Assembly (NCBI GenBank): GCA_945643635.1
Contig: CALZFC010000005.1
Coordinates: 4,697,501 to 4,761,500, forward strand
Source: Allodiplogaster sudhausi
Taxonomy: Eukaryota > Nematoda > Chromadorea > Rhabditida > Diplogasteridae
DNA length: 64,000 bases
Reading direction: 5' to 3'
Below the pieces are notes generated by a model. The model ran no database searches and was not told where the DNA came from. It was given only the letters and a program-made list of their open reading frames with translations. Below, one piece after another: positions 28,321 through 63,549 of this stretch. Both the position numbers and the translations under genes were made by a program. Every line of letters begins with the position of its first letter. Positions within the stretch are counted from its first letter, which is position 1.

Positions 28321-28329
28321 GCGCCTGAA

Positions 28330-28433
28330 GGCAATTAGAGATATTCACCATTCACCATATTCACCAGCATTCACCACTAGTAATATTCACCACGCTTATA
28401 GTTTTATTCACCACGCTTATAGTTTTATTCACC
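28330..28433 (+). repeat. Left terminal inverted repeat of the MULE
   Basis: Starts immediately after the 9-bp duplication. It contains five ATTCACC-type units and two copies of the 21-nt ACGCTTATAGTTTTATTCACC module. It differs from the right end at only a few positions. Confidence 0.93.
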
Positions 28434-28548
28434 CAGGCTTTCAAGCTCTCAGTTTCTAGCTTTCTAGCTTTCACCCTGATGTTTTGATTCAATTTATTGT
28501 TAATGGTAATACTTGTTTAGTAATTAACTGCATTTTTTCAGCAGAAAA

Positions 28549-30002
28549 ATGGAAGATCATAGCTTTGACCCCTTGATGAGCAGCACTGTTGAAGTTGAAG
28601 AGGAAGATGAAGTCGAGTTTCATAGGCCTTCTCAGCATCGTGAGGCGGAAGATGTTCTTTCTAGTCCATCTCGAGCTACAAGAATGTGCGTCACTTAAGT
28701 AACGAAAATGCAAGACGCTAGCTAATATGATTTAAATTCAGGTCGTCGTCGATGCTGTCTGATTTGTCATTCGAAAACGACCACTTGGATGCTACAATGA
28801 CAGGAGATAATGACCAGTCAGTGGCGCGAGCCCTTTTTGTAGATAATTATGCAATTATCTCAGATATTTCACTCGCCTTTTTAATCGCAAGCATTTAGTG
28901 TCAGGCACGATGAGGATGGAAGTGAGGCCGAGGGCGAAAGTAACTCTGATGATGAGCGTGCTCCTGCTGAATGTTCGGACCCGTTCGATGCTGCTACTCT
29001 CTTTGAAGATGACGAGGGATTTGTCTGCTTCAGAGGAGAGGAGATTCAGAGAAGCGACTACATCAGATATTTGGGGAAGATGTACGCGTTTCTTTTATAC
29101 GTGATAATTCTGTCATTAATTCAGCTCTTTATTTACAGTGTAGAAGAGTCTTGGGTCAACAAAGCGCCACCTTCTTTTCCACCTCCTTCGTGTACCATCG
29201 ATGCGTTCCATTACCTTGTCAAAATCACTGATGCGTATTCAGTGAAAGAGCTTTCGAATGACTCCGCTGGACCCTGGAATCAGTTCAACGGTATGCTTTT
29301 CCCCCAAGAAACTGCTTTTACGGAAAAAAATAAAGCATATTGTACAGGAACGAGAGCCAAATACGACAAATTCTTCGCAAAGAGGCAAATTGCGGCTACC
29401 TTAATTACGGTTGGAAGAACATCCGAGGATTATCAGGTATTTTCAATTTGCTGGGCAACAATATAGCTCATGTTAGTGTTTAGTGTTTCGGTGAAATACT
29501 CTCGAGGCATCTTGAGAGGCTCGGGTTTGGGGATAGAAAGATTCGATCCCTGACGACGGACGGAGAAGCTGCCTTCAAAGGATTTCTTAAGGTTATTTTT
29601 ATTCATGTTATGAGTTTTATCTCATGCGATGATTTCAGAGCAGCGTCGCGAGTATGGCCATTCATATAGGATGTCAGCTGCATGAACGCGAATCCCTTAC
29701 TCGTCAGATGAACCAGCACGGAAGTGAAATTGCGGATGTCAGTAAATGAGTAGGAAATGTCTCTTTCTTGTTCATGTAGCTACTCTTCGGAACTGTGAGA
29801 GAAAGCGGCACGAAGAGGCGTGGAGTACTGGATTGTGCAGACGCACAGCGTTCCGAACAGCAGCATCGGTCCACTTTTGTGACCGTGAAATGGAAAAGCA
29901 TTTGCTACGGTATGAGTTCATTTGGGCATACTTCGTGACAGATAGTAACTAAGATTTCTGAACGGCCCTTTCTCTATAGATACGGTGTCGTACATTTGGT
30001 GA
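28549..30002 (+). CDS. MULE-type transposase-like protein
   Basis: Probable transposase of the surrounding MULE, acting on the inverted repeats. Nine exons with clean GT-AG junctions can be read from 28549, with introns of 40-80 nt. The N-terminus is acidic and serine-rich (VEVEEEDEVEFHRPSQ, GSEAEGESNSDDERAPAE). The middle contains the segment CTIDAFHYLVKITDAYSVKE. The core AATLITVGRTSEDYQCFGEI, then RSLTTDGEAAFKGFLK and MAIHIGCQLHERESLT, resembles the MULE transposase fold, in which an Asp lies in a TDGE-like motif and a Cys/His string follows one helix later. The first and third acidic residues of the DDE triad cannot be placed confidently, and the protein ends soon after this core (stop 30000-30002). 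It may therefore be a truncated or diverged copy. No disabling stop was seen in the exons. Confidence 0.6.
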
Positions 30003-30258
30003 GTTGTTTGTTCATGTTTCACTCTCATACAACTGGGAATCCTACCATGCCCCAAGCTCTTCAACTCGACGTTTAAGCTTTTTATTCACAACTTTAGCGT
30101 CAATTTAAACAATTTTATTGTTTCTTTAATATCTTTCTTCTTAGAACATAAATCAAGAAAACAAAGTGTTAAAGCTCCTTTAATCCGAGCACAGGAGAAA
30201 GATTACAAGCACCAAAACATAAAAATAGCAGGCCATAATCAGATGTTAAACTTTATGC
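30003..30258. other. Spacer inside the MULE
   Basis: AT-rich 256 bp between the transposase-like gene and the convergent myosin fragment. It probably holds both 3' ends. No frame of note. Confidence 0.45.
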
Positions 30259-32400
30259 TTAATTCAACCAAAACATCTGGGCTAGATATATCCATCTATT
30301 TATCATCGGAACAGCAACTTTGAAGAAGCGCTGCTCAGAGAGAGGAGTCCGGTGAGATGAGAGTTGGCGGGAGATCGCAGGCGCAGTCGGCACGGGATTC
30401 TCACGACACGTCCGGCGGGTTCGCCACTCGTTCAAGACCCGGAGACGGCGGTGGAACTCCTCCTTGCATCTCAGAAGCTGCGACACATCTAAATACACAT
30501 GAGGCTGTTTTATAATCCTCTTTCTCATCCAGATTCAGAAAGGGTTGAGAAAGAGGATTAGAATCTTGCTCTAACCAGTTGAATTGTTAATAGTGTAGCG
30601 CAGCTTGGACAACTGCCAAGTAGAGAGGTCAGTATCATTCTCGATGAGAGGCGGCTGATGCTTGCGGTCGTCCTCCCTCCCCTGCTCCCTGAGGGTCGCA
30701 TCTAGACTGCTCCTCTCTTTCTCCATCTCTTCCTTCTTCTGTTTCTCCTTGTCTTCCTTCCTCATCCTCTCTTCTTCCTCTTCCCTTTTTTTCGCCGCCT
30801 TCTCTGCCGCGAGTCGTTCTTCCACCCTCCGCAGTCGTCTGAAAACCGTGAAAAGAGAATAGTTTTATGCTGGCCAAAGCAGATAGAAAGGATAGAAAAC
30901 GACAGCACTTGACACTCCAGATATGCCGGCTCCGAAAAGGCCTTACCTCTGTTTCTCCTTCAGAACCAGCGTAGTCTGCTTCTCTTCCTCTCGCCTTCTC
31001 TCTTCTTCTGCTTCCCTCTCCCGTCTCAGAGCCTCGGCATCACTGAACGAGAATAAGATTAGGAAGTCCCAGAAATGTAAAGATCTGACCGAATGCTGGC
31101 TAGAATGGTCTCGACCATCTCCACGCAGGAGTCGTACTCAGCTGTCGCCTTTTCAAGGGGCCACTGGGTCATCTGGGAAAAGAATGACATCATGAAGAGA
31201 AAGGAGAGACTGATAGAGCAAGAAGGGGAGGAGAAGCAAGATTGGCAGAAGGAGGGAGACGAACTCGGATATGCTCGATGAGTTGCAGGAGACTGTGGTT
31301 GAGTGTGGCGACTTCATCCACAAAGCGGTCTCCTTGGCGGAGTTCGGCATTCGCCTTCTGCAGTTGTTGGGCCCGCGAGAGAAGAGCCATTCTAAGAGAG
31401 AAAGAGGGAGATCATGAGAGAGAAGTAACGGAGAATGGACAGCAAGTGAGAAACCTCGGGAGGAATCGCCGCCTGGCGATGAAGCCGCGCACGTAGCGCT
31501 GAATGGTCACAACAGCGTGACGGCGGTATTCAATCTTCCGCTGCACAGCAAAGAGAGTGAGAGAGAGAGAGAGGAGAGAGAGAAGAAAGAGAGCGAGAGT
31601 GACGGAGGAGAGAAAAGAGGGAGAGAGAAAGAGCGAAAGAGAGAGAAGAGAGAGAGAGAGTTGGAGAGGCCAGAGGAGAAAAGGAGAAAACTGACGTTTC
31701 ACACACACACTGCCACGCGGCGTACTGCACCATCCGCCAGCGGAGAGTGAGCAGGGCGGACTTGGTCTTCTCCACCAGCACAGCCATCTCAGAGGGGTCA
31801 CACGACAAACCCTGAGAAGGCAGTGCAGTCGTAAGGGAAACAATCGAGAGGAGAGAGAGATAGAGAGAAAGAGAGAGATAGAGAGTTTACAAGTGAGGGA
31901 ACCTGCTGGGATAGGCAATGTCCATGAGTTTGAGAAGGCTGGGAATGCCAGCGCAGAGGAGTTGCGCGAGTACGAGGCCGCCGTCGAATTCGTTCACCGA
32001 CATCTTCTCGTTCGGCTTGACGCATCTCACGAAGTGGGTGCCCTGACATGAACCGCCTCCTTTCCTCTCTCTTTCTCTCTAATTTCTCCCGCCCTTTCAC
32101 TCCTCACAGTCTTCTCCAGTTTGAGCAGCAGATCAGTCAACTGGTTCTTGAACTTGTTGCCGACGGAGACGGAGCGGGGGCGGTTGATGTTGCTGCCGGC
32201 CTTGGGCTTCTGTTCCTTCTCGCCGCCAAACAACTCGCGAATCGGAGGTGAACTGAAGTGCTCATCTTTCCATCTTCTTCTTGTCTTCTCCACTCTTCCA
32301 TCTCTCTTTCTTTCACTCCTTTCTCTCTCTCTCACACACGCACTCCTCTCTCTCTTCTCTCTCTCTCTCGACATACGCGGATGACTCCATGAGATGCACT
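30259..32400 (-). pseudogene. MYO6: Myosin VI gene fragment (headless, converter and tail end missing) carried by the MULE
   Basis: Exons on the minus strand encode recognisable myosin VI in the correct order. The end of the motor comes first (RPRSVSVGNKFKNQLTDLLL, then FVRCVKPNEKMSVNEFDGGL). The lever start follows (SCDPSEMAVLVEKTKSALL, RWRMVQYAAWQ) and then the IQ segment HAVVTIQRYVRGFIARRRF. Next are helical and charged coiled-coil segments (ERLAAEKAAKKREEEEERM). The start of the cargo-binding region is DTDLSTWQLSKLRYTINNST, CKEEFHRRLRVLNEW and SEQRFFKV. Missing are the ATP-binding motor core (no P-loop, switch I or II anywhere upstream), the exon encoding the converter between DIAYPSR and GLSCDPS, and the final cargo-binding lobe. 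Introns are retained, so capture was at DNA level. The remaining exons keep open frames, so a headless product is conceivable, but a motor function is not. Confidence 0.85.
31555..31672 (+). repeat. GA-rich tract in myosin fragment intron
   Basis: Interrupted (GA)n sequence on the plus strand, pyrimidine-rich on the sense strand of the myosin fragment, lying between the exon ending QYAAWQ and the IQ-motif exon. Confidence 0.85.
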
Positions 32401-32779
32401 GGACGTTGCAACTACAGATTAAAACCGGATCTAAAAGTAGAACAGGCACAAAAAATGGACAATCGGTATTCATTCGGTTGAAACGAAGGCATAGAACACG
32501 AGTTTTTTTTCATATAAACACTTTCATTCCAATTCACAGTTGACTTCATCCACTCATTTTTTTTCCAACAAACATTATAGCATTCACATTGAAATAAGCT
32601 AGGCACACATATCACAGAAAGAGCAATGAACGGTGGGAAGGAGATATTTACAAGATATTAAAATATAACTCACATGAAGTTCCAGCAATAAATTGGCGAG
32701 ATCGAGTAATTTTTCTGTACTCGCGTTGGGCTAATGCACAAGATATGTCACAGGGAATTAAAAGAAGATTAGCATGAGC

Positions 32780-32885
32780 AGAAAGACATTAAGTAGGGCA
32801 CTCTAATAATAAAATGAGCCACCTTTGCAGACTATCATATTGGCACTCTAATAATGAAATGAGCTAGCTTTACCGACCATCAATA
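32780..32885 (+). repeat. Imperfect tandem pair (about 45 bp) inside the MULE
   Basis: The phrase CACTCTAATAATGAAATGAGC and its near copy with TAATAATAAAATGAGC are spaced about 45 bp apart. Function unknown. Confidence 0.6.
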
Positions 32886-32915
32886 TAAAAAAAAGCATCA
32901 GTGCCATTTCACAGT

Positions 32916-33740
32916 TCACTGAGTGGGCTCATGCTCAACATTGGGGACCATTCTCGGCCGGCCACCTCTTTTTCCTCGGTGAGTCGCGCGCCACCCGCCT
33001 CCTCGCCCAGCAACGGTGTTGTATACGATCGTGCCACTGAAAGTGGCACCCGCAGCAACGTTGATGTTGCCGAATGTCGGTGGGCGCGTGTTGAAGCTTC
33101 TCTGACGAGAGTTGCTGAAAATCGAGTTTCTTGCCTTTCTCAATTAAAAATGCAACTATTTTCACAGCTTATTACAAGAAATTTAGTTACCTGTAAGTCT
33201 TGCGCGTCCATGACTTCGGGACGGGTCGCTGCCCTTGCGAAGATGAACTAGAAATATCAAGTTTGCTCAGAATATTGTAAAGAAATTAACAAACGAATAA
33301 CCTTAGGGCTTGGGCGGGAAGAGGCTGAACTTGTCCTGCAGGAATCACGGACGCTTCCATAGACACTGCTCTGCAAAGATACATCGAAATAAGTAATCAT
33401 ATTTTGTAAAAGAATCTAAATCGCTCGGCACAAACAATGTTCAATTCATCTTGGATTTAACTAACTCGTCTTGCTGAATCTGTCGAGATTCCGCGGATTG
33501 CTGAGAAGTGGGAGCTGCAGCCTGGCGGTCGTTGGGCTGCGAGCGCGCGCTCATCTTGTCGTTGTGGACGGAGACACACAGCTGGAGCGACTCTCTCAAA
33601 GCTCACAAGGAACATAGAGAACACACAAAAAAGGTCAAAATATGCGTAATATTTCCTGGACCGAACCTGTCGATCTGAGAAGTCGCCTGCTCGCGATCGC
33701 GACTGCTTGAGGTGAATTGGCGCGGCTGGTACGGCATCCT
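32916..33740 (-). CDS. Unrecognised Arg/Gly-rich coding segment inside the MULE
   Basis: A chain of short minus-strand exons can be read from about 33738 (MPYQPRQFTSSSRDREQATS) through segments rich in Ser, Gln and Arg (SARSQPNDRQAAAPTSQQSA; SVRDSCRTSSASSRPSP; ATRPEVMDAQDLQ). The last exon encodes NINVAAGATFSGTIVYNTVA followed by an RGG-like tail (GRGGGWRATHRGKRGGRP). I do not recognise the family. The last exon is open in two frames, so the reading frame is not settled. It may be another captured host gene piece or a MULE-borne gene, and no start context or homologue confirms expression. Confidence 0.35.
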
Positions 33741-34479
33741 GGAAATGAAAGCTAAAAAAAAGATTTAACTAAAAGAATTACCAACGTAACACCCGGCGAC
33801 AAAAAAAGAAATAAAAAGAACGCGCATCCAAGTCCTAAAAAGCAACGCGACCGCACGCGTAGGAAACCCAATCTAATTCACGGTCAAAACCATAAATCCC
33901 ATCCGTTGATTAGTCAAAACCACGAATCTGTCCGTAAATTAGTTTTTCATCAGAAGCCGCTCAAACTAGGGGGGACAAAACGCTGTGCAGACGAGTCACA
34001 CGGCGAAGCTGAATGGAATAGGCTGTTACTGAAGTTTCCAGGGAACATACGAGAAATGTTAGTTACAGTTAATTTTTCTGCCAAATGGTGTTTGTTTTCC
34101 TATTGTTCAGCGCACTTCCGATGTTCCGCTCACATACGGAATTCGGAGTCGAATACTGGCCGGATGGGGAATCGTTCCCCCCACAACCAACTCGGCCGAA
34201 ACCCATAACAAATGGCTGCGTGAGAAAGTTGGAAACAGGCAGCCGCTTCACGTTTTCGCGCAGCGTCTCATGGAGTACACCGAAAGTCAGTGCCTTTCTT
34301 ATTAGTAGAGATATTAAACACCATAACGTTTAGCTCACGTGAAGCTCCTCAAAGCAGCTCTCCATGGTGGCGGAAGCAAGAAGCTTGCTAGTGGTGGCCG
34401 ATCACATCGGTGGTGACCGGCGCTGTAAGGCGCTCTGATCATCAGTCATACAATTTAATTTTCTTACAGTATTAGTTTG
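33741..34479. other. MULE interior without a supported gene
   Basis: Contains short frames on both strands (33906-34208, 34085-34333) with no conserved motif. Motor-domain sequences that would complete the myosin VI gene are not present here. Confidence 0.4.
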
Positions 34480-35181
34480 ATGACTCGTTCAGGATTTGAT
34501 GCACTCGGCGGAGTTCCCACGCTGCAGCAGGATGCCGTTGCTGCACTGGACGCGTCTTCTGCTGAAGTGACTGAGGTATCCTATTTATCAGTTGAATTGT
34601 CTCTTGCACTACATTCTTTATACTCAGAAACTGGAGCGATTTCTCATCTTTCTCCCGTCACCTCAGCGATTGCAAGAATTCGTCGATGGGACAAGTCGAA
34701 CAAAAAGGCTGTTCTTCTACCAGAATGACAACTCGATGGTGCTGTCGCTCGCAACAGGTTCCATTAAGCTTCTAGATCTTTCGGTATGGCATTGACGACA
34801 AGGAAAAGAGTTGGTTGTAGAAATGCCGCAAAATCAGCCAAAGAAGTGTGCCGAGTGCTATGGTCCCCTAGAGCGCAAGATTGACGGACTTGCTTCTGAT
34901 CTTGTGGTGGCACACTATGAGGCCTTCGAATATGTGAATCAGGAAGGAAAGACGTGTCGTGGATTAGGAACGAGGTACATAATAACGATTTTCTCCACAC
35001 GCATATTGTAAACATGCCTCATTTGTCTTTCAGATACATGCACGTTCGATTTTCCTGTGTTGTCGGTCGTCACTCGCACATCACCCATCACGACTTTGTC
35101 TTCTCTTCCAAACTGAAAGCCTCCTTGACTACTTTCTACAAGGAATGGATTCGTAGGTCTTTTGGAATTGTGAACTTCTGA
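34480..35181 (+). CDS. Unrecognised multi-exon gene next to the right MULE end
   Basis: Exons beginning at 34480 encode MTRSGFDALGGVPTLQQDAV and later RLQEFVDGTSRTKRLFFYQN. The third segment has a CxxC pair (KKCAECYGPLERKIDG), and the last exon contains YMHVRFSCVVGRHSHITHHD and KASLTTFYKEWIRRSFG, with the stop at 35179-35181. Introns have GT-AG ends. I do not recognise the family. Position suggests either a second MULE gene or a captured host fragment. The frames are open across several exons, which argues for coding potential. Confidence 0.45.
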
Positions 35182-35384
35182 GGATTTTGATGATGATGAG
35201 GATGAGTGATTTTCGACCTTTTTTCATTTATGCTAAGCATACCTGTAAATTACTGCAGTCCGGTAATTAGTGCAATAAGTTAATAATGCTTGTCTGGTGA
35301 ATAAAATTTAACCGGTTACATTAATGGTGAAGTGGAAAGAAAGAATTGATAGCAAGAAATCGTTGGGTGTAAAGCTATAAGCGT

Positions 35385-35488
35385 GGTGAATAAAACTATT
35401 AGCGTGGTGAATAAAACTATAAGCGTGGTGAATATTACTAGTGGTGAATGCTGGTGAATGTGGTGAATGGTGAATATCTCTAATTGCC
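35385..35488 (-). repeat. Right terminal inverted repeat of the MULE
   Basis: Reverse complement of the left end, ending at the 9-bp duplication (35489-35497). It has one additional ACGCTTATAG module on its inner side (to about 35365). Confidence 0.93.
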
Positions 35489-35675
35489 GCGCCTGAAATA
35501 TTTTTTCCTGACTGAAATATTAATAGATTTGCAACTTTCTTTGCATTGTGTTAAGAGGTTAACTTCCTTGGCGAAAAATATGTACACCGTTCGGAATCAT
35601 ATGCCACAACGCTCGGCTATATTTGTACTACGATAATTTGCCATTTCAGGGTAAGGACATCGTTGTCAACTGGAA

Positions 35676-38115
35676 ATGAAAGTGTGGTCTTCTGGCTTCA
35701 CCTTGTTTCCATATAGCTTGGATGAGCTCTGCACCATCTTCTGGGAGCGATATCCAAACTCATTCGCGGGGCATATCATCTCCGAAGACGTTCTTAGCCG
35801 TGAAGTCACTCGAGACACCATCGTCACTCGTAAATTGATTGTCAAGCAGGGTTAGTTACTTTTACGTTTTCAAAAATATTTATGCTTTTAGCTTTATGCC
35901 AATGGGCGTTATTTGAAGGGAACTCGATTCTAAAAAGAGTACCTCGTTGGCTAAGCAAGATGACTGAAGTCCGAGTAGTTCCGACTATCGAAGAGAGTGT
36001 CTTCGACCGCTCGTCCAACACTCTCACCACTTACACCCGGAACGTGAGCCATGTCGACCTCTTCGAGATGCATGAGAGATGCGTATATCGACCTTCCTCC
36101 AACTGCCAGGTTATTTCTCTCTTTTCTTATTGGAATAGTTGCAGAAATTTTAGGCAACCAAATGTACCCCTTTGGGCCTCTTTATACTCCACGCCTGCGT
36201 TTCACTTGTCCCCATTTGTAGCTTAACAGTTGCCCATTTAAACAGTATAAGGTGAACTCAATGGGTAGAATATCACAACACAAGAGCGCTCAAGTAAACC
36301 CCTTTTTAATTCCGGTGTATAGTGGTCTGGATTAATTTTGGATACTCGTAGGTTTTAAGTGACAAAATCAATGATAACGTATGACATTAAGTGTGAACTT
36401 CCTTCGTTTAATAATTTATGATCCATTTTTCCTAAGTATGTTTCCCGGTGGAGTTAGCAGACCACGGAAACATACCAGGATGCAGAGGTGTCAATGGGCC
36501 GGCCCGGCCCGGCCCTCAGGGCTGGCTGGCCCAATTTTCCAAGGCCCCGGGTAGGGCCCAAGGAAAGTTGGGCCGGCCCGTAGGCCCGATTGGGCCCTCA
36601 AGTCAGAAATTCCTGGCAAATTGATGGTAAAGACATAAACTTTAAATTTTCGGAAGTATTAGAAATTGGTTTATATATAGTGGCATGTTACTTGGAGGTG
36701 GGGCAACATATTTTTGCTTTGCATTTCATTCAAACTGTGCACAGGGGGGTTTTCGAACATGGAGAACACGAATATTACGTTTTCCTCTACGAGGACCAGC
36801 AGATTCACACGGTGGCTGGGACGGACTACGGAGACGGAAACCTGGGAACTCGCGGAATGGCTCTCTTCTTCCACTCACTCGAGAGCAAAGACATCTACCA
36901 CTAACTCTGCCTCACTGAATTCGATCTGGGTGCCGCGGTAAGACGAGCACTCGCGGAAGCGTCCTGCCGCACGGCCACACGCTGCGTTGCAAGGAACAGG
37001 GGAGACACTTGTGGCTCAGTTACTTTGTTAAACTGCATGCAAGCCCAAAACAAACCCCCAATTAACATAACACCAATTTTTGAAAAACAAATTTTTTCGG
37101 ATTTTGAAAATTGGGCTCAAACGGGCCCAAGGGCCGGGCAGGGCAGGGCCCAAAATTACAAGGCCCGGAAATTTCCGGGCGGGCAAGGCCGAGACTTTGG
37201 GCCCTCAGGGCAGGGCTGGCCCAAAAATTTAGGGCCCGTTGACACCTCTGCCAGGATGTCTACTTTTTTTTCCTTTTGAATAAGGCAGCTTTATTTACCT
37301 TTGCTTTGAGGCAAATAGTGATATTCACCCATTCACCCCGCATTCACCCAGGATTCACCCAGCATTCACCCACATTCACACAAGTACTAAAATACATAGC
37401 GTGGGTGAATGTGGGTGAATGGGTGAATATTGCTATTTGCCTTGCTTTGACGTTATGACTTCTTTTTTTCAACTATCTACTATTTACAATTTTAGTTTCA
37501 GCCGTAGAAATGTATAAAACCTTGTATTTTGCATCTCGCCAGTAAACTTCACGTCCATGTGGATTTGAAATTTTTTAATATTGCCCCATCACCAACAATT
37601 CGTTGAGAGACGTAAATTTCGCTTGTAGTCAATGAAACTAGATGAGGCCCCAAAGATTTGTCTCTTAAAGGTTTTTTTTGGCTTTGTCCCTTAAGTTGAA
37701 CATAGTTGTATTCTATTTCTTCTAAGGAGAAGCCGTCGTCGGGCATCCTTCGCAGCGTCTTCATCAATGTCAATACCGGAAGAACTAGCAAATACGTCTA
37801 CGAAAATGTGATGTTGATGGGTTTCCAAAAGAGTGTCGCGGCCACTCTCAAAGGACTCACTGAGAAACTTGAGGTCAGTTTTAAACGCTCACTATTTTAT
37901 TTATTTATTTTGACATGTTTCGTTTAGTACTTTTTTTAAAGTCGCAGTTAAGGTGGCTGTTCTCTTATCCTTATATTCTTTAGGAGCGTTACGGTATGCG
38001 ACACCCGGAGACGACTCTTCATCACTTCTCGGAGAAGGCACAGAAGTTGAAGGAGGGAACAAAGGAGAAGCTGCGAGAAAGAGCCCATCTCGTGGGCGAG
38101 AAAGTCAATTGCTAA
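35676..38115 (+). CDS. PRELID1: PRELI/MSF1-domain lipid transfer protein (223 aa)
   Basis: PRELI-family proteins shuttle phosphatidic acid or related lipids across the mitochondrial intermembrane space together with TRIAP1. Exons 35676-35850, 35892-36109, 37727-37873 and 37984-38115 join to 672 nt in frame. The domain is recognisable from the N-terminal FTLFPYSLDELCTIFWERYP, HIISEDVLSREVTRD, VPRWLSK, STTRYT-like TLTTYTRNVSHVDLFEMHER and ERCVYRPSS, and from the second-half helix LMGFQKSVAATLKGLTEKLE. The C-terminal helix (EKAQKLKEGTKEKLRERAHL) resembles the LEA-like tail of PRELID1 rather than PRELID3. The protein length is close to the family's usual about 220 aa. Intron 2 (1617 nt) is far longer than its neighbours because it has received a hAT element and a MULE-family MITE. 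The start lies only about 180 bp from the MULE. Confidence 0.88.
36484..37250. mobile_element. Non-autonomous hAT-type element, 767 bp, carrying an eEF2-kinase exon relic
   Basis: The ends are CAGAGGTGTCAATGGGCC and its inverted counterpart CAGAGGTGTCAACGGGCC. The element is flanked by an exact 8-bp direct repeat CCAGGATG (36476-36483 and 37251-37258), the target duplication size of hAT elements. Both subterminal regions are GC-rich and built from GGGCC/GGCCC strings. There is no transposase frame. The interior (about 36740-36940) encodes a piece of an alpha-kinase domain. It sits in PRELID1 intron 2. Confidence 0.92.
36739..36952 (+). pseudogene. EEF2K: eEF2 kinase alpha-kinase exon fragment inside the hAT element
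   Basis: The plus-strand frame reads HEYYVFLYEDQQIHTVAGTD, then YGDGNLGTRGMALFFHS, and after an in-frame stop LCLTEFDLGAA. The string DxQIHTxxGTDxGDGNLGxRGMALFF followed by an LxxFDL block is characteristic of the nucleotide/metal-binding end of the eEF2K alpha-kinase domain. The exon is bounded by an acceptor-like TGCACAG at about 36743 and a donor-like GCG|GTAAGA at about 36953, so it appears to have been captured with flanking intron sequence. The stop codon in the middle shows it is a relic. It has the same orientation as PRELID1, so cryptic inclusion is possible. Confidence 0.8.
37310..37441. mobile_element. 132-bp MULE-family MITE
   Basis: A nearly palindromic element beginning GGCAAATAGTGATATTCACCC and ending with its inverted form. 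It is flanked by an exact 9-bp duplication TTGCTTTGA (37301-37309 and 37442-37450). The termini match those of the large MULE at 28330-35488 (GGCAA-TAG-GATATTCACC with iterated ATTCACC). It lies 51 bp from the hAT element in the same PRELID1 intron. Confidence 0.93.
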
Positions 38116-63050: not shown

Positions 63051-63549
63051 TGCATTATATGAATATTTTTTTCCGATTTTTAATTTAATCGTTTTGCCCA
63101 AGCCGCTCAGATCCGCTTGATCCGTGTCCGCTGGCTTGCGGCCGGAACTGTATGTGCATACAGTTGTATAGTTTTTTTTATTCTTTGAAACTCTGTTATT
63201 TCATATTTTATGCACTTTTGAAGAGAAAAAGCGGAAGGAAGATGTCTTCGTGTTGCACGAAGGGAGTCTATCTAGTAGATTTCTGCCAACCTGGAAAGTG
63301 CATTGTATGAATATTTTTTTTCCGATTTTTAATTTAATCGTTTTGCCCAAGCCGCTCAGATCCGCTTGATCCGTGTCCGCTGGCTTGCGGCCGGAACTGT
63401 ATGTGCATACAGTTGTATAATTTTTTTTATTCTTTGAAACTCTGTTATTTCATATTTTATGCACTTTTGAAGAGAAAAAGCGGAAGGAAGATGTCTTCGT
63501 GTTGCACGAAGGGAGTCTATCTAGTAGATATCTGCCAACCTGGAAAGTG
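63051..63549 (+). repeat. 248-bp tandem duplication (two near-identical copies)
   Basis: Copy 1 (63051-63298) and copy 2 (63299-63549) begin TGCATT(A/G)TATGAATATTT and end CTGGAAAGTG. They differ by about three substitutions and one extra T. Each copy contains CTGTATG-TG-CATACAG, a 7-bp inverted repeat, and the start of a Cys-rich frame. High identity suggests a recent event. Confidence 0.93.

Follow-up and report, generated by a model that had tools for sequence, protein, structure and literature searches.

In silico analysis of a 64,000-nucleotide window from the nematode Allodiplogaster sudhausi (contig CALZFC010000005.1, positions 4,697,501 to 4,761,500) indicates, with high confidence, that a 7159-bp stretch bounded by the ends of a Mutator-like element (MULE) is made of two nested cut-and-paste transposons, and that the inner one, not the outer one, holds and spreads a piece of a myosin VI gene. 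The first-pass annotation of this DNA had taken the stretch for one Pack-MULE-like element, whose single pair of ends enclosed everything. That description does not survive, as 29844-33987 is a second transposon with its own ends, and the cargo lies within this independent 4144-bp unit, for which three copies of the outer element have an empty site.

The nesting was observed directly in copies fetched from the genome (L-numbers denote the fetched loci). A genome search with 32401-35360 divided this segment into two parts; its first 1587 bases are an independent multi-copy repeat, and the remainder matches copies of the outer element. Alignment of the fetched copies set the edges of the nested block at 29843/44 and 33987/88. 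The outer copies L046, L047 and L049 are uninterrupted at the insertion point and contain a single CAGACG, the hexamer duplicated around the inner element in the window; therefore, the inner element was inserted into the outer gene. The insertion point lies between the CxxH stretch of this gene (29672-29683) and its presumed catalytic Glu (34198-34200). The two elements also occur apart. In the copy comparison, 29844-33983 had no match at any of the outer-element loci L009-L028 and L045-L052, and at ten loci (L035-L044) the inner element is found without matched outer-element sequence. The features of the composite are as follows (strand in brackets where assigned):

28321-28329: left 9-bp target-site duplication of the outer element, GCGCCTGAA
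28330-28433 (+): left terminal inverted repeat of the outer MULE-like element, with ATTCACC modules
28549-29837 (+): 5' half of the multi-exon outer transposase-like gene, starting MEDHSFDPL (open reading frames, motifs by eye)
29838-29843: left 6-bp target-site duplication of the nested transposon, CAGACG
29844-33987 (-): nested CACAGCGTT-type (CMC-like) transposon, 4144 bp, genes on the minus strand
29844-29852 (+): left terminus of the nested element, CACAGCGTT
30317-32394 (-): captured myosin VI fragment with introns (motor end, IQ motif, coiled coil)
32916-33554 (-): small four-exon gene predicted in the nested element; its product, of about 137 aa, is Arg/Gly-rich and matches nothing in Pfam
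33979-33987 (-): right terminus of the nested element, AACGCTGTG
33988-33993: right 6-bp target-site duplication of the nested transposon, CAGACG
33994-35181 (+): 3' half of the outer transposase-like gene (open reading frames, copy alignment)
35385-35488 (-): right terminal inverted repeat of the outer element
35489-35497: right 9-bp target-site duplication of the outer element, GCGCCTGAA

The cargo of the inner element is a myosin VI segment with introns, as had been recognised at the outset. The closest solved-structure relative of its minus-strand exons is myosin VI (E 5e-10), and Pfam assigns Myosin_head (8.5e-10) and IQ (3.5e-5), with MYO6_lever below the cut-off. The annotation had proposed to find the intact myosin VI locus and align it at the DNA level; a parental locus was found in L055 (C299). 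The window cargo aligns with positions 600-2986 of L055 in blocks of 89-92% identity (and 24 bp at 100%), with internal deletions. Introns are retained, the non-exon identity between the window copy and L055 being 758 of 843 bases. The host gene runs past both capture edges: the cargo-binding domain lies beyond one of them and the P-loop GESGSGKT beyond the other. The window and nine fetched copies match L055 solely between 600 and 4225 (76-100% per block); the lower edge, 600, is shared by the window, L036, L039 and L075, and the upper edge, 4225, by L039, L040 and L041. Each inner copy has its own cargo deletions. We infer from this that the cargo goes back to a single contiguous capture of about 3.6 kb, introns included, without the N-terminal motor or the cargo domain. 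Thus, the inner element has the properties of Pack-type elements in that it contains a host-gene piece captured at the DNA level, with a parental copy elsewhere.

A myosin VI cargo-binding domain above the cut-off was found at eight places in the genome, one of them with an internal stop. Myosin VI therefore resembles a small gene family in this nematode, with two of the eight places on C299.

The inner family is widespread. A 300-bp query from its left end gave at least 28 matches at about two dozen places, at least 24 of them starting from base 1 and at least 18 full-length; apart from the window insertion, at least 17 other places hold the whole left end. At all 18 places listed (window counted), a whole left end has a myosin-segment match beside it. 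Five other inner copies were fetched whole; their flanking duplications are CGGTCG, TATATA, AAAGTG, TGTATG and CCGCTG, respectively, and ten further two-ended copies, seen as small end pieces, have 6-bp (eight copies) or 5-bp duplications (C262 and C140). Overall, exact 6-bp duplications are present in 14 of 16 two-ended copies and 5-bp duplications in the remaining two. The termini CACAGCG...CGCTGTG were found in the inner copies checked, except for the right end of C270, which reads ...CTGTA. The copies fall into subfamily A (the window and L035-L042), subfamily B (L043, L044 and the copy at C6:0.35M, of which the piece L076 matches L044 at 98% and L043 at 97%) and a third group with left ends 83-86% identical. 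The first and last exons of the predicted small gene are present in all five copies compared, with one stop in L043. Two partial copies, L079 (C347; 276 bp of the left end, 2 kb fetched) and L054 (right end only), have no myosin in the fetched sequence. L079 was considered as a pre-capture element and rejected, because its match to the inner element does not extend beyond 276 bp.

Three inner copies, C16 (L040), C137 (L041) and C6:0.35M (transposase frame L077), contain DUF1280 matches; the window copy has none. The L040 model comprises 902 aa, cut to 827 aa, with DUF1280 at E 5e-15 in Pfam and a PHD-like finger below the cut-off. The gene lies inside the element, between the cargo and the right end, and a single element with matching 6-bp flanks comprises left end, myosin blocks, DUF1280 and right end in both C16 and C137. 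CFLC/CYLC and HWLLCH are visible by eye in the inner transposase proteins and are candidates for the Chapaev pattern of CxxC and H(3-4)H between the second Asp and the Glu. A protein search with the DUF1280 transposase model scored 8000 candidates, none at E <= 0.001; the L077 frame gave a best E of 0.81 in PDB, NCBIfam returned 0 families and an Rfam scan of the window 0 matches. Pack-type elements are non-autonomous; this holds for the window copy, while C16, C137 and C6:0.35M carry both DUF1280 and cargo. The window copy is an internally deleted derivative without the transposase gene, so that a transposase protein would be needed from elsewhere. Mobilisation by the DUF1280 protein is probable.

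Published accounts of the Chapaev group agree in part with these characters. DUF1280 has been ascribed to Chapaev transposases, in a clade with RAG1 (PMC3985635, as far as its account of the domain goes). Chapaev elements are described with CAC...GTG termini and 3-4 bp target duplications in the pertinent section of PMC4079192, and CMCT elements with 2-5 bp duplications in that of PMC12730594. The inner family has the CAC...GTG termini, the DUF1280 transposase and, by eye, candidate CxxC and HxxxxH motifs, but differs in its 6-bp duplications, in the sub-threshold PHD-like finger and in its captured myosin VI. Since the termini fit while the duplications do not, the inner element is regarded as CMC-like and is not filed as Chapaev.

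The ratio of nonsynonymous to synonymous substitution rates (dN/dS) differs between the transposase and the cargo. Between subfamilies, transposase dN/dS is 0.13 for L077-L040 (794 codons) and 0.12 for L077-L041 (791 codons); within subfamily A, the L040-L041 pair gives 0.49 on 16 changes. The cargo ratio is 0.90 for window-L043 (248 codons), 1.14 for window-L044 (218 codons) and 0.82-1.80 across all ten A-B pairs, with a non-exon identity of 0.92-0.94 between subfamilies. Against the host gene, the window cargo gives 0.38. The transposase is thus conserved between subfamilies and the cargo is not; with its ratios of 0.82-1.80, the latter behaves as a neutral passenger.

The following history is proposed. 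An outer element, of Mutator type by its ends, inserted at GCGCCTGAA, and a copy of an unrelated CMC-like family, with CAC...GTG ends and 6-bp duplications, then entered its transposase-like gene. An ancestor of the inner family had taken up about 3.6 kb of a myosin VI gene at the DNA level, probably in a single capture and presumably by template switching or gap filling. The piece has spread with the family to at least 18 places as a neutral passenger, in transposase-bearing copies as well. In its widest form, this reading describes a nematode CMC-like lineage with 6-bp rather than 2-5 bp duplications, whose transposase-bearing copies permanently carry a multi-exon host gene, that is, an autonomous animal "Pack" transposon that multiplies its transposase, subject to purifying selection, together with a myosin VI passenger that evolves neutrally. 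This wide form is put forward tentatively, with a little less than even confidence.

Several observations weigh against the proposed history and its wide form. Concerning autonomy, no intact gene was found among the three transposase-bearing copies: the 796-aa open frame of L077 ends before that of L040, the L040 model bridges a probable frame break at one spot relative to L077, and L041, compared with L077, is interrupted by two in-frame stops. The right end of the C6:0.35M copy was not found at the position guessed. Concerning classification, the 6-bp duplications depart from the 3-4 bp (CMCT 2-5 bp) of the known group. Concerning the cargo, its limits in subfamily B differ (start 679; end 3974 in L043 and 3499 in L044), and no pre-capture relative of the inner element was found. 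Between subfamilies, the transposase dS of 0.22 is about three times the cargo dS of about 0.06, a difference that simple joint descent fails to account for. Recombination among copies could be the source of this gap.

An improbable alternative dispenses with active capture: chance insertions would have placed transposon ends around part of a host myosin VI copy, after which the composite moved. The absence of a pre-capture element from the data suits this explanation, and with eight host myosin VI loci its formation at one of them is conceivable. However, L055 has no inner-element match in the 0.6 kb and 1.8 kb outside the capture edges, and the transposase gene sits between the cargo and the right end within the element. 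It is very unlikely that the cargo has been domesticated for a function, for example as a truncated myosin tail made by the transposon. The nine exons examined are open in the window copy where present, but this explanation is rejected on the dN/dS of 0.82-1.80 between subfamilies, on partial gaps in ten codons when compared with L043 and likewise with L044, on a stop in L036 and on deletions that differ among copies. Least credible of all is a single Pack-MULE, in which the outer element captured myosin VI and other host pieces between its 104-bp repeats; all features do lie inside one inverted-repeat pair with a 9-bp duplication, but the cargo has transposon ends and a 6-bp duplication of its own, no inner-element match appeared at the outer loci (L009-L028, L045-L052) and no outer-element match at the inner loci (L035-L044), and the empty sites in L046, L047 and L049 refute it.

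The outer element itself is delimited exactly at 28330-35488 (7159 bp), because its terminal 20-base end is present at both ends and none is expected by chance (0 expected). Within the window, GCGCCTGAA is confined to 28321-28329 and 35489-35497, and the inverted repeats are 104 nt long and 98% complementary, in agreement with the exact 9-bp duplication and the ATTCACC-based repeats of about 104 bp first noticed. The genome search with the end sequence, suggested at the same time, yielded further copies: a 121-bp end query against the 352-Mb genome gave 52 matches, including both window ends. An exact 9-bp duplication is present in 13 of 17 two-ended copies (window counted), which bears out the Mutator-type ends; the exceptions are L013 (7 bp), L022 (7 of 9), L027 (8 of 9) and L023 (none). 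Variant-end relatives with both ends, besides L027, have 9-bp duplications in five of five cases, namely L046, L047, L049, the inner miniature inverted-repeat transposable element (MITE) of L045 and the window MITE at 37310-37441. The outer family therefore shows the MULE characters of 8-10 bp (mostly 9-bp) target duplications and inverted repeats common to its copies. The possibility that the end repeats are chance matches or independent MITEs, which the annotation had named among its possible refutations, is ruled out by the common 9-bp duplication and the family-wide ends.

One outer-family copy, L010 (C110:335605-338407), has flanks resembling those of the window (89% left, 96% right), and C110 is the only other match listed for the window's adjoining right flank. 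Its element has the same 9-bp target as that of the window, is in the opposite orientation and is of a shorter type. This likeness could result from ectopic repair through inverted repeats or from repeated insertion.

The coding stretches of the outer element are 28549-29843 and 34063-35181. Positions counted from the open reading frames place the Asp of TTDGEAAF at 29559-29561 and the CxxH of GCQLH at 29672-29683 (both by eye), and the presumed catalytic Glu, in TTNSAETHNKW, at 34198-34200. The window copy has two gaps relative to other copies. The first, at 29387, amounts to about 1.0 kb against L048 and L049 (L046 and L047 contain about 0.35 kb at this point), and the second, at 34402, to 0.72-0.81 kb against L045-L049. 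The L046/L047 stretch corresponding to the first gap contains IDSTF, which, as read by eye, we take for the initial catalytic Asp in a D...D-CxxH...E arrangement of MULE type. Because these stretches are missing relative to other copies, the outer gene looks incomplete regardless of the nesting. The transposase-like core of the first-pass annotation is thus upheld as to its coding halves and not as a complete gene. Similarly, its two further spliced units exist as coding-like units, but they are not separate host-like cargo, one being the small gene of the inner element and the other the 3' half of the outer gene.

Profile searches gave little for the outer protein. The MULE profile test proposed for its exons was negative: the Pfam MULE domain PF10551 matched neither the window exon pieces nor the hand-joined L046, L047 and L049 pieces, and none of the 59 PF10551 places among the genome matches listed falls at fetched outer-family loci. 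Pfam returned only DUF7747 (E 1.2e-5, one exon) and two weak matches (E 0.1-0.2), and an hhalign comparison of an outer protein piece with a single canonical MULE open reading frame was uninformative. As profile evidence for a MULE transposase is lacking, the label is kept at "MULE-like"; by its ends, the element would be of Mutator type.

The outer family may be compared with Tm1, a Mutator/Foldback family of root-knot nematodes (PMC3169594, in its description of the family). Both are nematode families with composite inverted repeats and mostly 9-bp duplications, and Tm1 has MITE-like and transposase-like members comparable to those of the outer family, the likeness being one of description only. 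In contrast to the outer family pieces, Tm1-A is reported there to match the Pfam MULE domain.

Gene capture by animal DNA transposons (Turmoil-1, PMC2572040; Pack-TIRs, PMC8277862) and by plant CACTA elements (PMC8903248) is already known from the sections of these papers that treat it. The survey of animal Pack-TIRs (Tan et al. 2021, PMC8277862) counts 370 cases, 323 of them hAT and Tc/mariner; by its main account, no Pack-MULE was present in reference genomes, and Ssk-FB4 of fly populations are called Pack-MULEs. The inner family resembles Pack-TIRs in its host sequence between animal DNA transposon ends, parental copies elsewhere, multicopy spread and distinct duplications. In contrast, Chapaev and CMC are unnamed in the main text of that survey, and here transposase-bearing copies also carry cargo. 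Turmoil-1 of Caenorhabditis elegans, as described in PMC2572040, is likewise a nematode DNA transposon with pieces of host protein-coding genes; however, it is a Harbinger element with 205- and 131-bp pieces inside its inverted repeats and nine listed copies, whereas the inner element has an internal, multi-exon piece of about 3.6 kb. Pack-CACTA (Pack-TYPE) elements show gene capture by CACTA, hence by a CMC-group transposon, but according to the definition in PMC8903248 they are plant elements, non-autonomous and with CACTACAA-type core ends. Within the literature searched, what is new is an animal family of CMC-like transposons that has 6-bp duplications and transposase-bearing copies that also carry a multi-exon host fragment; among the titles listed from the open-licence PubMed Central (PMC) literature, none describes such a myosin VI/CMC capture.

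The significance of the inner family lies in the large (about 3.6 kb, multi-exon) capture and its spread by an animal CMC-like transposon, of a group that the main text of PMC8277862 does not name. As parental genes, cargo, transposase-bearing copies and deleted copies share one genome, capture, cargo decay and transposase selection can be timed against each other. A caution also follows for annotation, namely that nesting can mimic a Pack-MULE.

Other repeats were noted in the genome and the window. Two further outer-family elements lie on C246. The first (L014+L015, C246:85878-105352) measures 19.5 kb, has the 9-bp duplication AATCAAGGA and is filled by two arrays that together contain about 11 tandem copies of a 1.37-kb unit. 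The second (L018+L019, C246:1575183-1592458; 17.3 kb, 9-bp duplication CTTGGCAAG) holds retroelement-like frames, apparently another nested insertion. The MITE at 37310-37441 is 132 bp long, belongs to a related outer-type family and has the 9-bp duplication TTGCTTTGA; 36482-37250 is a repeat with dozens of genome matches among those listed. The animal setting assumed from the start agrees with SL1 RNA genes in the host genome, for which 26 SL1-model matches are listed, at 44 bits against the Rfam gathering score of 75; both of the match loci read contain GGTTTAATTACCCAAGTTTGAG, the nematode SL1 leader, which identifies the host as a nematode. Finally, 63051-63549 consists of two tandem copies of a 249-bp unit with 98% matches.

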